A stretch of DNA of 64,000 nucleotides, taken from NCBI RefSeq assembly GCF_012932565.1, contig NZ_JABBYJ010000001.1, positions 1,922,001 to 1,986,000 of the forward strand. The letters run 5' to 3'. Origin of the DNA: Sneathiella limimaris (lineage in GTDB: Bacteria > Pseudomonadota > Alphaproteobacteria > Sneathiellales > Sneathiellaceae). The first letter of the stretch is position 1. Each line of letters begins with the position of its first letter. The notes below the pieces were generated by a model that searched no databases, was not told where the DNA came from, and saw only the letters and a program-made list of their open reading frames with translations. The position numbers and the translations under genes are program-made. This document shows positions 42,738 through 47,298 of the stretch, one piece after another.

Positions 42738-43934
42738 TTAGGCAGTAAAGGATTGGATACCTGTCTGTGCACGGCCAAGGATCAAGGCATGCACATCATG
42801 AGTGCCTTCGTAGGTGTTGACTGCTTCTAGGTTCATCACATGACGGATCACATGGTACTCATCACTAATCCCGTTACCGCCGTGCATGTCACGTGCTGTC
42901 CGCGCAATATCCAGTGCCTTACCGCAGGAATTACGTTTGATCAGGGAGATCATTTCCGGTGCTGCGCGGTTTTCATCCCGAAGGCGACCAACGCGCAGGC
43001 AAGACTGCAGACCAATTGAGATTTCTGTTTGCATATCGGCGAGCTTTTTCTGGATCAGCTGGTTGGCAGCAAGTGGACGGCCAAACTGTTTCCGATCCAG
43101 TGTGTAGTTCAATGCAGCCTGCCAGCAGAATTCAGCGGCACCAAGTGCACCCCAGGCAATACCGAAGCGGGCGCTGTTCAGGCAGCCAAACGGACCTCCA
43201 AGTCCCTGAATATTTGGCATCAGGTTTTCTTCTGGAACGAAGACGTTGTCCATTACAATTTCACCCGTAATGGAGGCGCGAAGCGAGAATTTTCCTTCAA
43301 TTTTTGGAGCGCTCAGGCCTTCCATGCCTTTTTCCAGGATAAAACCACGGATGATGCCGTCATCAGTCTTGGCCCAAACAACAAAGACGTCTGCTACTGG
43401 AGCGTTTGTGATCCACATTTTTGCACCTGTCAGGCGGTAGCCACCATCAACAGATTTAGCGCGAGTGACCATGCTGCCAGGATCAGACCCGTGATCGGGC
43501 TCTGTCAGACCGAAGCAGCCGATCCATTCACCGGTTGCCAGCTTCGGAAGATATTTTTCCCGCTGCTCTTCGGTGCCATATGTGTAGATGGGATGCATGA
43601 CCAGACTGGACTGCACACTCATCATGGAGCGGTAGCCACTGTCAACTCGTTCAACTTCCCGGGCGATCAGGCCATAGGATACATAGGACATTCCTGCGCA
43701 ACCATAGCCGTCGATTGTTGCACCGAGCAGGCCGAGTTCACCCATTTCGCGGAATATGCTCGTGTCCATTTTTTCATGACGGTTGGCCTCAAGGACCCGC
43801 GGCATTAGTTTTTCTTGGCAATAATCGTGGGCAGTCTGTTTAACCAGACGTTCCTCTTCTGTCAGTTGATCATCCAAAAGAAAAGGATCAACCGGGTCAA
43901 ACGTCGGGCGGTGATTTGGAGGCGTACTGCTCAT
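42738..43934 (-). CDS. gcdH: glutaryl-CoA dehydrogenase
   Basis: 398-residue FAD enzyme that converts glutaryl-CoA to crotonyl-CoA in lysine/tryptophan-type catabolism. [21 protein letters not shown] is the family version of the ACAD signature (DHGSDP is typical of GcdH). [22 protein letters not shown] follows. The base is the Glu in [20 protein letters not shown], and [19 protein letters not shown] is also characteristic. CGGAGCC precedes the ATG. Crotonyl-CoA could be handled by the enoyl-CoA hydratase encoded 1 kb away. Confidence 0.93.
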
Positions 43935-44288
43935 TGGTGGGGCTCCGTGTACTGATCTAAGTTTTATTTGTTACTTATGATTTTGAGTCTGAGGAAACGT
44001 ATCTATCCAACTTTTGCAAAAAACTCAACATTTCGCTGCAGAGTTTCGTTTGACTTCAAATGAATGAAATCATCCTTATTCCTGAATTTGTTCTGATATC
44101 GATAGCAGTCAAGTTTTCCGGGATCGGACAAAGGCCTTTGCTTCCAAATAAAAAAATCAAGGTTTGAAGAAAAATGTAATAAAACTTTCAAGAGTGTTGA
44201 TTTTATATTTTATCTATTATTACATACTAAATAAGTACTAGGTATTTTTGGGGCGATGAAAGAATTATGACAATGGTGGGGTTAGCCG
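43935..44288. other. intergenic region upstream of the multi-cysteine protein gene
   Basis: 354 bp between divergent genes. I see no convincing gene. The right third (about 44190-44250) is markedly AT-rich with several TATTA/TAAATA stretches and probably holds the promoter of the gene starting at 44289. TGGGGTTAGCCG just before that ATG is its likely ribosome-binding site. Confidence 0.6.
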
Positions 44289-45938
44289 ATGAAGCGGTAT
44301 GTTTTAATATTATGTGCGTTTTTGATCTCAACTTCAGTTCAGGCTGGAGATTATTCTTCTTTATACAAGACTAATAATGCAATTGATCTTGAAAAGATTT
44401 TCCAGCAAGCTGATGACTTGCAAAACCAGTGTTCAAGGTCGGTTATTAAGCAAGATTGCATCAATCGCTGTCCAGCAGCGTCGGGCAATCTCAAAACCGC
44501 GGTTGATAAACTCCTCTCCCATCCAGATCCAATGAACGGCAGCACGCTAAGGATACGGCAGCAAATTGAGTTTAGCGTTGGAAGCTGTATGTTATTGTTC
44601 AATTTATCTGATGATAAACCAGATGCGTACTATGCATTGAACCAGTTTTTTGCAGAAATAAAGAAAGAACCTTTTACCTGGCCTGCAAAAAACACAGAGG
44701 TTGCGGCAACGCCGACTGCACCTGCTGAGGGTGCAACATCGGGTAAAGATTACGGCCCTCTGGTTACTGCTGATGGGAAACTAGACGTCCAAAAAGGCAG
44801 GGACCTCTATAAACAGGTTGAAAATCAATGTAAGACGACTGGTGATCGGAATTGCGCAGCCTGTGGCTCTTTCGCTGCATCACTTTATGGTAAGGTGAGC
44901 GGTGTTTTTGGTGCGCCGGGCTATGATGATGAAAAAGTATCTCAAACCAACGAGGGAAAAACATGGATTGGTAGCCTGAATAGATGCCGGCAAATTGTCT
45001 TAACTAACGGCTTGCAACCGGAAGAATTGAAGCCTCTTGAGCAGTTGGCAATCGCCATTTGGGGGCGTGAAGATATCCTCGTGTCCTATGCCTCAAAGAC
45101 GGCAGCACCCAAATCAACGGCACAGTCAGCCCCGAAAGCGGCGCCTCAAGCAACCACTAAAGCAGCACCCTCGGCACAGCCTTCAAGCAGTCTCGCTGGT
45201 CTTCCGGTCCAGCCGTATGGCTATTCGAATGCTGAGGTTACGACTCTCTATAACGTGACCAAGAAAACAATGACCGAAGAGCGGCAGATGGGTCTTTCCT
45301 TTTGTGCGCAGATGGACAGGCGGTTCGCAGATGCTTTGTTGTTTAACAGAGGACAAGCTATCCAACTTATAAATAACTGTGCGTCTTTCTCTCGAACAGC
45401 AGAGTTGAGGCAGACTGCACAAGCTTATTTGACGACACATACTCAACAGCAACAAGCGGCCATGAAGCCGAAACAACAGCCCCAAAACTCAGAGTTTAAA
45501 TTTACGCGTGAGGAGGTTGAGGTTTACCGTAAGAGGTTGTTTGAGCTGGAGCCCAGGATCAATGAGATTGCGTACAAAAGGTGCAATGGGAGACATTTGC
45601 ATCGTCCGACCACTGAAATGCTCACTAAAGATTATTTCCGGGTAACCAGTCATCCAACTTTTCCGGGCAATCATCCTGATAGATCCAAGCAAATTAGCAA
45701 TACTCATTTCGAGGCCTATCTTAACAAGGTCAAAAACTGCATCGAGCAGACTAGGCAAGCCGGACCGCATTTGTATGAAGGGATTGCTGGGATTATGAAG
45801 ACTAAGAAAAATCCTCCTCCTTTTGATCCTGTGCGAAACAAGAATTACTTGGAGCTGCAAAGTGATTACGAGCATTACTTCAAAGCGTATATGGCTACGC
45901 GGAAACAGGTATACCGGGACTACCGATCTGGGAATTAA
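44289..45938 (+). CDS. unrecognised secreted multi-cysteine repeat protein
   Basis: 549 residues. A Sec signal peptide (MKRYVLILCAFLISTSVQA) is probably cut after Ala19. I recognise no family. The mature part looks like three or four loosely repeated helical modules: Cys48-57-61-100, Cys181-189-192-233, Cys339-364 and Cys432-484. In modules 1, 2 and 4 the outer cysteines are exactly 52 residues apart, and both first modules share N-Q-C before the first cysteine. All ten mature cysteines could form disulfides in the periplasm. Modules 1-2 and 2-3 are joined by low-complexity Ala/Pro/Thr/Lys linkers (about 134-152, 268-302). Gln-rich stretch near 385-400. The region 315-550 is basic. No operon partner is obvious; a hairpin follows at 45969. 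Confidence 0.85.
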   Translation: MKRYVLILCAFLISTSVQAGDYSSLYKTNNAIDLEKIFQQADDLQNQCSRSVIKQDCINRCPAASGNLKTAVDKLLSHPDPMNGSTLRIRQQIEFSVGSCMLLFNLSDDKPDAYYALNQFFAEIKKEPFTWPAKNTEVAATPTAPAEGATSGKDYGPLVTADGKLDVQKGRDLYKQVENQCKTTGDRNCAACGSFAASLYGKVSGVFGAPGYDDEKVSQTNEGKTWIGSLNRCRQIVLTNGLQPEELKPLEQLAIAIWGREDILVSYASKTAAPKSTAQSAPKAAPQATTKAAPSAQPSSSLAGLPVQPYGYSNAEVTTLYNVTKKTMTEERQMGLSFCAQMDRRFADALLFNRGQAIQLINNCASFSRTAELRQTAQAYLTTHTQQQQAAMKPKQQPQNSEFKFTREEVEVYRKRLFELEPRINEIAYKRCNGRHLHRPTTEMLTKDYFRVTSHPTFPGNHPDRSKQISNTHFEAYLNKVKNCIEQTRQAGPHLYEGIAGIMKTKKNPPPFDPVRNKNYLELQSDYEHYFKAYMATRKQVYRDYRSGN

Positions 45939-45968
45939 TAGAATTCACTGATTTTGAAAAGTTATGTG

Positions 45969-45998
45969 ACAGGCCGCTAAATCATTTTTGCGGCCTGT
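45969..45998. terminator. probable terminator after the multi-cysteine protein gene
   Basis: ACAGGCCGC pairs with GCGGCCTGT around a 12-base loop, followed by TCCATTTT. It lies 30 bp after the stop codon. The T-run is weak. Confidence 0.6.
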
Positions 45999-46143
45999 TC
46001 CATTTTGACAGCTTTGCATCTGCAGTCATGCATTAGTGAACTTAAAGCAAAAGTGTGAGATTGGCCTTTGTGTTCAATCTGAAGAATTATATTATGCTCC
46101 TGAATGACAATGCAGTTCGCTTAAACCAATCGTTTGATTTTAC

Positions 46144-46380
46144 ATGAATGAACAAGAACTCATTATAGAATTTGTTCCAATAGGGAATTCAGTGAAGGTT
46201 TCTGTGATGGATCCCGTTTCCTTGACAGAAGTTTCCATTGTCGGTCCTAGAACCGCGAGTCAGCAGGAGTTGCAGCGGACAGCGGTTCAAAAGCTGCATT
46301 ATGTCTTGTCGCAGAAACAATCGGCTAAAGATAAAGCAGAAGAAAACAACGATAAGCCAGGACGCGGAATTATTGTCTAA
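46144..46380 (+). CDS. small conserved protein (DUF6898-like)
   Basis: 78 residues. The first 60 form a compact domain: ELIIEFVPIGNSVKVSVMDP, then TEVSIVGPRTASQQELQRTA and a helix VQKLHYVLSQ. The tail is Lys/Glu-rich and ends GRGIIV. The pattern matches small alphaproteobacterial proteins I associate with DUF6898, which have no known function; I could not confirm the family. The VKVSVMDPxSxTEVSIVGP strand pair looks like a beta-hairpin with an interacting face. Only cytosolic features are visible. Confidence 0.8.
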   Translation: MNEQELIIEFVPIGNSVKVSVMDPVSLTEVSIVGPRTASQQELQRTAVQKLHYVLSQKQSAKDKAEENNDKPGRGIIV

Positions 46381-46457
46381 AGGTGCCAGAAAAAACCCGA
46401 ACCATTAACATGATCCGGGTTAGTCAACGAGATACCGATACACTCTGGTTTTTTGTG

Positions 46458-46919
46458 TTAGCAAATAGGCCCCATCCGGGCGCCTTTCATCAGGATTTCA
46501 AAATCCCAGTCGGTAACATGGACAAGGTTTTCGTGATCTCCTGCCTCGAAATAGACATCTGAATTATTTTCTAGAGATTCGTCCATTAGAACGTTTAAGC
46601 CATAGGCGTTGCCAATGGGCGGGACGGCGCCTAATTCGCAATCGGCAAAGAAGGGGGAAAACTCTGTTTCGGATGAAAGCTCCATTTTCCGGTTCGTGAC
46701 TTTCTCAATTTTCTTGAGCGATATCTTTTTTTCACTGGGCACAACGGCGAGCAGGAAGCCTTTGTCATCTTTTAAGACAACGGCTTTAGCTACACAGTTT
46801 TTACGGATATGTGCTTTTTGGGCTGCTTCAACAATTGTTGCAGAAGGCTCATGCTGAACCATGTCGTAATCCACTCCAGCGTGGAGCATATAACTTTCAA
46901 GTGAAGTTGCCATTCCCAT
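46458..46919 (-). CDS. YbaK/ProX-type aminoacyl-tRNA deacylase
   Basis: About 153 residues of the YbaK/EbsC family, which hydrolyses misacylated tRNA in trans. VDYDMVQHEPSATIVEAAQ opens the domain, followed by NCVAKAVVLKDDKGFLLAVVPSEKKI with the conserved catalytic-region Lys, and LGAVPPIGNAYGLNVLMDESL with the GxxPP loop. It may act on Ala/Ser- or Cys-charged tRNA(Pro) or another tRNA; the subtype is uncertain. I chose the ATG at 46919 because AGGAGA lies 6 nt upstream; the frame stays open for 26 more codons. Confidence 0.9.
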   Translation of the reverse strand: MGMATSLESYMLHAGVDYDMVQHEPSATIVEAAQKAHIRKNCVAKAVVLKDDKGFLLAVVPSEKKISLKKIEKVTNRKMELSSETEFSPFFADCELGAVPPIGNAYGLNVLMDESLENNSDVYFEAGDHENLVHVTDWDFEILMKGARMGPIC

Positions 46920-47298
46920 GGGCTTCTCCTGTGTTTGGTTTGCGGAAATATTGGAGGCGATGACAGTAATCAGGTGAGGGAGGGCATACGCTGTCAACAG
47001 GCCGGTTTATTAACTTTCCATAATATACAGTAACATGCGCGTAATCCGCAAGGATAAAACCATCGGGTGCCTTGTAATCGAAACCCAACCGGTCTGCTTT
47101 GCGGAGAGTTTCAAAAGAAGGGGGAGATAGAGCTAGGAACTCAGGAAATGATGTGCTATCCAACCGGCGTTACTGGCGGAATCAGGCCAATAAGCTGTCT
47201 TATTAGACAGGTTTTAGTCGGATGGAGGCCAGTGTAATGAGCAGGAAGAAAATAACCTGCCTTTCGATTGGCGAGTAGTCGAACTTGGAGTGACCCGC
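46920..47298. other. intergenic region between ybaK-type gene and glyA
   Basis: 379 bp between divergent genes. A TTG-started open frame on the minus strand (46897-47163) overlaps the ybaK-type gene and has no good start signal, so I do not call it. The 120 bp next to glyA contain AT-rich sequence and GGAG before the glyA ATG. I recognise no riboswitch. Confidence 0.5.

Follow-up and report, generated by a model that had tools for sequence, protein, structure and literature searches.

A predicted exported orphan protein of Sneathiella limimaris with a probable internal domain duplication, encoded at an insertion site

The window analysed here, a stretch of 64,000 nucleotides from Sneathiella limimaris (contig NZ_JABBYJ010000001.1, positions 1,922,001 to 1,986,000), contains an open reading frame (ORF) at 44289-45938 on the + strand, which starts with ATG and encodes a protein of 549 amino acids, as originally predicted. 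The chance of an open run of 549 codons is 2e-14 at the ORF's own composition, and the ORF is real. Its GC3 of 0.455 is ordinary for the region (mean 0.466 over 34 window genes), and its codon preference (-0.011) lies about 2 sd below the gene mean (0.075, sd 0.042, n = 34 window genes), the lowest value among these genes being -0.030. A terminator-like hairpin of 10 pairs (45968..45999, + strand) starts 30 bases beyond the stop codon and is shortly followed by four T; the segment 45955-46012 around it has a folding energy of -22.5 kcal/mol (z -4.7). This hairpin is absent from the consensus terminator scan. No sigma-70-like promoter was found by consensus scan upstream of the ORF on the same strand, and an Rfam scan of 43900-46500 returned no matches.

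The ORF lies between an acyl-CoA dehydrogenase gene at 43934, which we take to be gcdH-like, and a small gene of 78 amino acids (46144-46380, + strand). A close match of the gcdH-like gene was found in 21 of 23 congeners (all except G012 and G016), and in 20 of these 21 loci the small gene adjoins it; the remaining locus, L023, is truncated and shows no small gene. In the 20 loci holding both genes, the gap between them is 124-191 bp, while their starts are 2210 bp apart in S. limimaris. The inserted DNA is bracketed by a 79-bp imperfect direct repeat (70% identity, E 1.7e-4), whose right copy (46130..46208, +) covers the upstream edge and the 5' end of the intact small gene and whose left copy (44046..44124, +) is a degenerate remnant of the same 5' end, with early stops. 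The start codon of the left copy lies 126 bp from the gcdH-like gene, approximately where congeners have the real start of the small gene. With a repeat period of 2084 bp, 2210 minus 2084 also leaves 126 bp, close to the 124-bp gap of L003, whose gcdH is the most similar among the congeners (95%), indicating that a unit of about 2.08 kb was inserted or integrated at this site. Either its insertion duplicated the site, or the unit brought along a 5'-end copy of the small gene and integrated by recombination through it. Since the unneeded left copy has degenerated and the 549-codon frame is still open, the site suggests that the ORF has been kept by selection, and our best reading is that it was gained or born at the insertion site and kept.

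Beyond the small gene lies a gene on the - strand (46458-46997), presumably YbaK-like, with a terminator-like match of a 12-pair stem just past its end (46394-46421, - strand). A match of this gene was found in 7 of the 22 gcdH loci (L002-L023). The loci L002 (that of S. limimaris) and L023 end short of its position, and 13 further gcdH loci have about 1.5 kb of that flank with no YbaK-like match, L015 and L019 having glyA nearby instead.

The N-terminus of the protein, MKRYVLILCAFLISTSVQA-GDYSS, reads by eye as a typical Sec-type signal peptide at residues 1-19 (44289..44345, +), in agreement with the original prediction. C9 is within the hydrophobic part of this signal peptide, which does not have the look of a lipobox. 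The genome of S. limimaris has 9 matches to the DSBA family, which also includes other enzymes, so that its members need not all be oxidases, and 1 match to DsbB, making disulfide formation after export feasible. An export signal and an oxidising machinery, as a disulfide-bonded exported protein would call for, are thus both found. From these features, the 549-residue protein is predicted to be exported and its cysteines are predicted to form disulfides.

Cysteines occur at positions 9, 48, 57, 61, 100, 181, 189, 192, 233, 339, 364, 432 and 484, that is, 12 after the signal peptide and 13 with C9. The original prediction had counted ten in the mature protein, although the groups that it listed (48/57/61/100, 181/189/192/233, 339/364 and 432/484) add up to twelve and agree with the positions seen here. 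Module 1 (residues 21-135; 44349..44693, +) has the pattern C-x8-C-x3-C-x38-C with C48, C57, C61 and C100, and module 2 (residues 153-269; 44745..45095, +) has C-x7-C-x2-C-x40-C with C181, C189, C192 and C233; the Asn-Gln-Cys motif said to be common to them is indeed present at C48 and C181. A low-complexity linker at residues 270-307 (45096..45209, +) leads to module 3 (residues 308-385; 45210..45443, +; C339 and C364), and a second linker at residues 386-401 leads to module 4 (residues 402-518; 45492..45842, +; C432 and C484). The linkers are as low in complexity as described earlier, their composition being rich in Ala, Pro, Thr, Lys and Gln.

The feature that first drew attention to the protein was the exact 52-residue spacing of the outer cysteines in modules 1, 2 and 4. 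This spacing is real, but it is not significant alone, because 12% of 20000 random placements of 12 cysteines contain some spacing of at least 20 residues that recurs at least three times. Moreover, C9 and C61 are also 52 residues apart, showing that such a spacing arises easily. More telling is the recurrence of the four-cysteine pattern between modules 1 and 2, which was reached in a fraction of 0.00074 of 50000 random trials at tolerances of 1, 1 and 2 residues that were picked after the data had been seen. Anchored on their cysteines, the two modules align better than shuffles, both ungapped (P 0.0006) and gapped (P 0.004), and hhalign placed them at 1 of 200 cysteine-fixed shuffles, the best of the six module pairs tested. 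By plain Smith-Waterman, in contrast, they score no better than shuffled sequence (P 0.24). Their MAFFT alignment has 19% identity, with D-Y near the start and NQC at the first cysteine in common, and with P, L, Q and I in both modules after the last cysteine. Together, these data suggest that module 2 is probably a diverged copy of module 1.

In the same tests, the likeness did not extend to modules 3 and 4, neither of which beat shuffles when compared with modules 1 and 2, be it by Smith-Waterman (P 0.41-0.85), hhalign (31 to 170 of 200) or profile comparison. Module 4 in particular was at chance level in ungapped comparison with modules 1 and 2 (P 0.35 and 0.26) and stood at 170 and 56 of 200 in hhalign, and three equivalent 52-residue modules were rejected on its account. 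Its sole likeness to modules 1 and 2 is two cysteines 52 residues apart, and the cysteines of module 3 are 25 residues apart, so neither is upheld as a repeat copy; kinship of these modules with modules 1 and 2 is unproven at the sequence level. Between themselves, modules 3 and 4 gave 14 of 200 in hhalign and P 0.11 by Smith-Waterman.

Structure prediction was carried out for the whole protein and for module 1. The single-sequence model of the whole protein is nearly all helix and, with a pLDDT of 39, unreliable. At this pLDDT, it has neither helix nor strand at residues 268-329, continues a helix of the module 4 region to residue 546, and places the first cysteine of each module at or beside a helix end and the last in a later helix. 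For module 1, with module 2 supplied as a single extra alignment row, AF2 gave a four-helix bundle of moderate confidence (pLDDT 65, pTM 0.54), whose helices span module residues 14-30, 34-55, 65-86 and 92-105. In this model, helix 1 has C48 close to its end, helix 2 carries C57 and C61 one turn apart, and helix 3 carries C100, an arrangement that would allow either a C48-C100 bond plus an inner pair, or a helix 2 stapled to helices 1 and 3. Module 4 lacks inner cysteines, which would favour pairing of the outer cysteines with each other if module 4 were homologous. Judging from the models, the fold may well be helical, and the disulfide-stapled helical repeat originally proposed fits modules 1 and 2, given the recurring four-cysteine pattern and the almost entirely helical AF2 model of module 1, but not a repeat of three or four copies.

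Fold searches were run with the module 1 model alone. Foldseek returned no match at E 0.001, the best being E 0.058 (PDB) and 0.37 (BFVD). The best match in VIA-align was an unrelated large helical protein (Z 10.2, rmsd 3.5, 115 aligned), at a level where helical bundles (below Z ~13) may have only a common arrangement. The lack of a fold match for this model is no proof of a new fold.

Searches with the whole protein at E 0.001 found it in its own genome alone, both among 60 relatives and among 398 genomes of the phylum. Among 385 genomes of the class at E 0.01, four other genomes matched (E 0.003-0.009), and these were rejected as chance or low complexity, with three overlapping the linker at 270-307 and the fourth (residues 308-442) having 2 stops. 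In the genus at E 10, weak pieces were found in 8 of 23 congeners (best E 0.007), and 5 of the 8 overlap the linker at 270-307 or that at 386-401. With a profile of modules 1 and 2, matches at E 0.1-0.8 turned up in 6 of the 23 congeners and at a third place in the own genome; below E 0.1, the protein itself was the only match. In the class, the same profile matched five other genomes of 385 (E 0.001-0.04). Two of these matches (L063 and L066) were dismissed as chance matches, as their frames look by eye like known enzymes (UDP-glucose dehydrogenase-like and amino-acid biosynthesis, respectively); so was that in L062, with a stop inside the match, and those in L064 and L065 also have stops inside. 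The genome samples overlap and hold one genome per species, and in the class and phylum searches with the whole protein at most three candidates were scored per listed genome.

No relative was found in phages, plasmids, viral contigs or genome contigs, collections from which records of or near the own genome may be absent. The profile search called for by the original prediction brought no family: no cut-off was reached in Pfam, where the modules were also scanned apart (lowest E 0.4 for the whole protein and 0.063 for the modules), and none in NCBIfam (lowest E 0.095). The best matches in PHROGs and in PDB sequences were at E 0.53 and 0.86. In the parts of the literature available to us, we found no paper on such a protein or domain. 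The 549-residue protein thus has no convincing relatives in the genomes, phages, plasmids, viral contigs, family libraries and PDB sequences searched.

We propose, at about even chances, that the ORF encodes an exported binding protein, found in one genome alone among those searched, whose helical modules are braced by disulfides and connected by flexible linkers. Modules 1 and 2 would be an old internal duplication of a helical domain of about 115 residues with four cysteines, and modules 3 and 4, each with two cysteines, would be additional helical segments. Sec would carry the chain out of the cytoplasm, the signal peptide being cleaved behind residue 19, and in the periplasm DsbA/DsbB would oxidise its cysteine pairs, so that rigid helical domains with flexible linkers between them result. 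Its most likely role would be the binding of some ligand or partner, either at the cell envelope or outside it, with several domains adding avidity or reach; the surface or periplasmic ligand of the original prediction is a plausible inference. Against this explanation count the plain local alignment of modules 1 and 2, the poor whole-protein model, the coding-frame codon preference, which is no better than that of one of the ORF's own alternative frames (-0.013), the neighbouring genes, which look housekeeping by eye and indicate no binding partner, and the failure to find relatives that a conservation test could use. A further-reaching proposal, that modules 1 and 2 represent an undescribed four-cysteine helical domain, present as a tandem duplicate in an exported protein with a new binding role at the envelope or outside the cell, which a single species acquired through a single-gene insertion with repeat ends and retained under selection, is one that we put forward tentatively and with more doubt than belief.

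Three other explanations were weighed. One holds that there is no repeat and that the ORF encodes a single orphan protein with coincidental cysteine spacing, as the Smith-Waterman result for modules 1 and 2, the 12% chance of a recurring spacing and the failure of the tests run to relate modules 3 and 4 to the first two would allow; we consider it unlikely in view of the four-cysteine recurrence, both cysteine-anchored alignments and the hhalign result, which all point the other way. Somewhat less probable still is a periplasmic metal or thiol protein, in which the inner cysteines (C57xxxC61 and C189xxC192) would bind copper or zinc or be redox-active. DUF326 is linked with copper storage proteins (Csp), and a DUF326 match over 11 residues of module 3 speaks for this idea, as do Csp among the Foldseek rows and the location of CxxxC and CxxC each inside one predicted helix; however, the match is below the cut-off (13.6 bits against 20.4), the Foldseek rows are at chance level (E 1.9 and 2.1), the periplasm is an oxidising compartment, and inspection of the neighbouring ORFs by eye revealed no gene for metal handling.

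We give an equally small chance to a secreted factor that acts against other microbes or phages and arrived with a mobile fragment; it might be an envelope protein blocking a phage, a bacteriocin or lysozyme. A single-gene insertion seen in this genome alone, the signal peptide and the want of a housekeeping family match would all suit such a factor, but PHROGs gave no significant match and none was found in phages or plasmids. Furthermore, the other ORFs of at least 80 amino acids in the insertion are all antisense inside the ORF, which leaves no apparent gene for a partner or an integrase.

We take the ORF to encode a real orphan, predicted to be exported, whose internal domain duplication is modest but probable. 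The original observation is thereby confirmed in part, and its interpretation is supported in part. The wider importance of the protein is modest. It offers a long, predicted exported orphan whose insertion site is readable against 20 congener loci, which means that its origin, by transfer or gene birth, can be studied, and the four-cysteine helical module, if a new domain, would be a small stable binding scaffold.

Among known systems, the LprI-type lysozyme inhibitor domain, which we take to be Pfam PF07007, is exported, small and helical with cysteines near both ends, and the four-cysteine modules described here, predicted to be exported and helical, share these traits. Different from LprI, they carry three cysteines towards the N-terminus and one towards the C-terminus, and PF07007 did not appear among the matches up to E 10 with either the whole protein or the separate modules, HMMER filters dropping most matches above ~0.1. 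In the helical bundle of Csp, cysteines are spaced by one turn along a helix, an arrangement also predicted for module 1, whose model is helical at the pLDDT given above; here, however, there are at most four cysteines per module. The protein also resembles lineage-restricted exported orphans in its signal peptide, its low-complexity linkers and its lack of detected relatives. To our knowledge, most orphan proteins are shorter, and the present one differs from such orphans in its apparent internal domain duplication.
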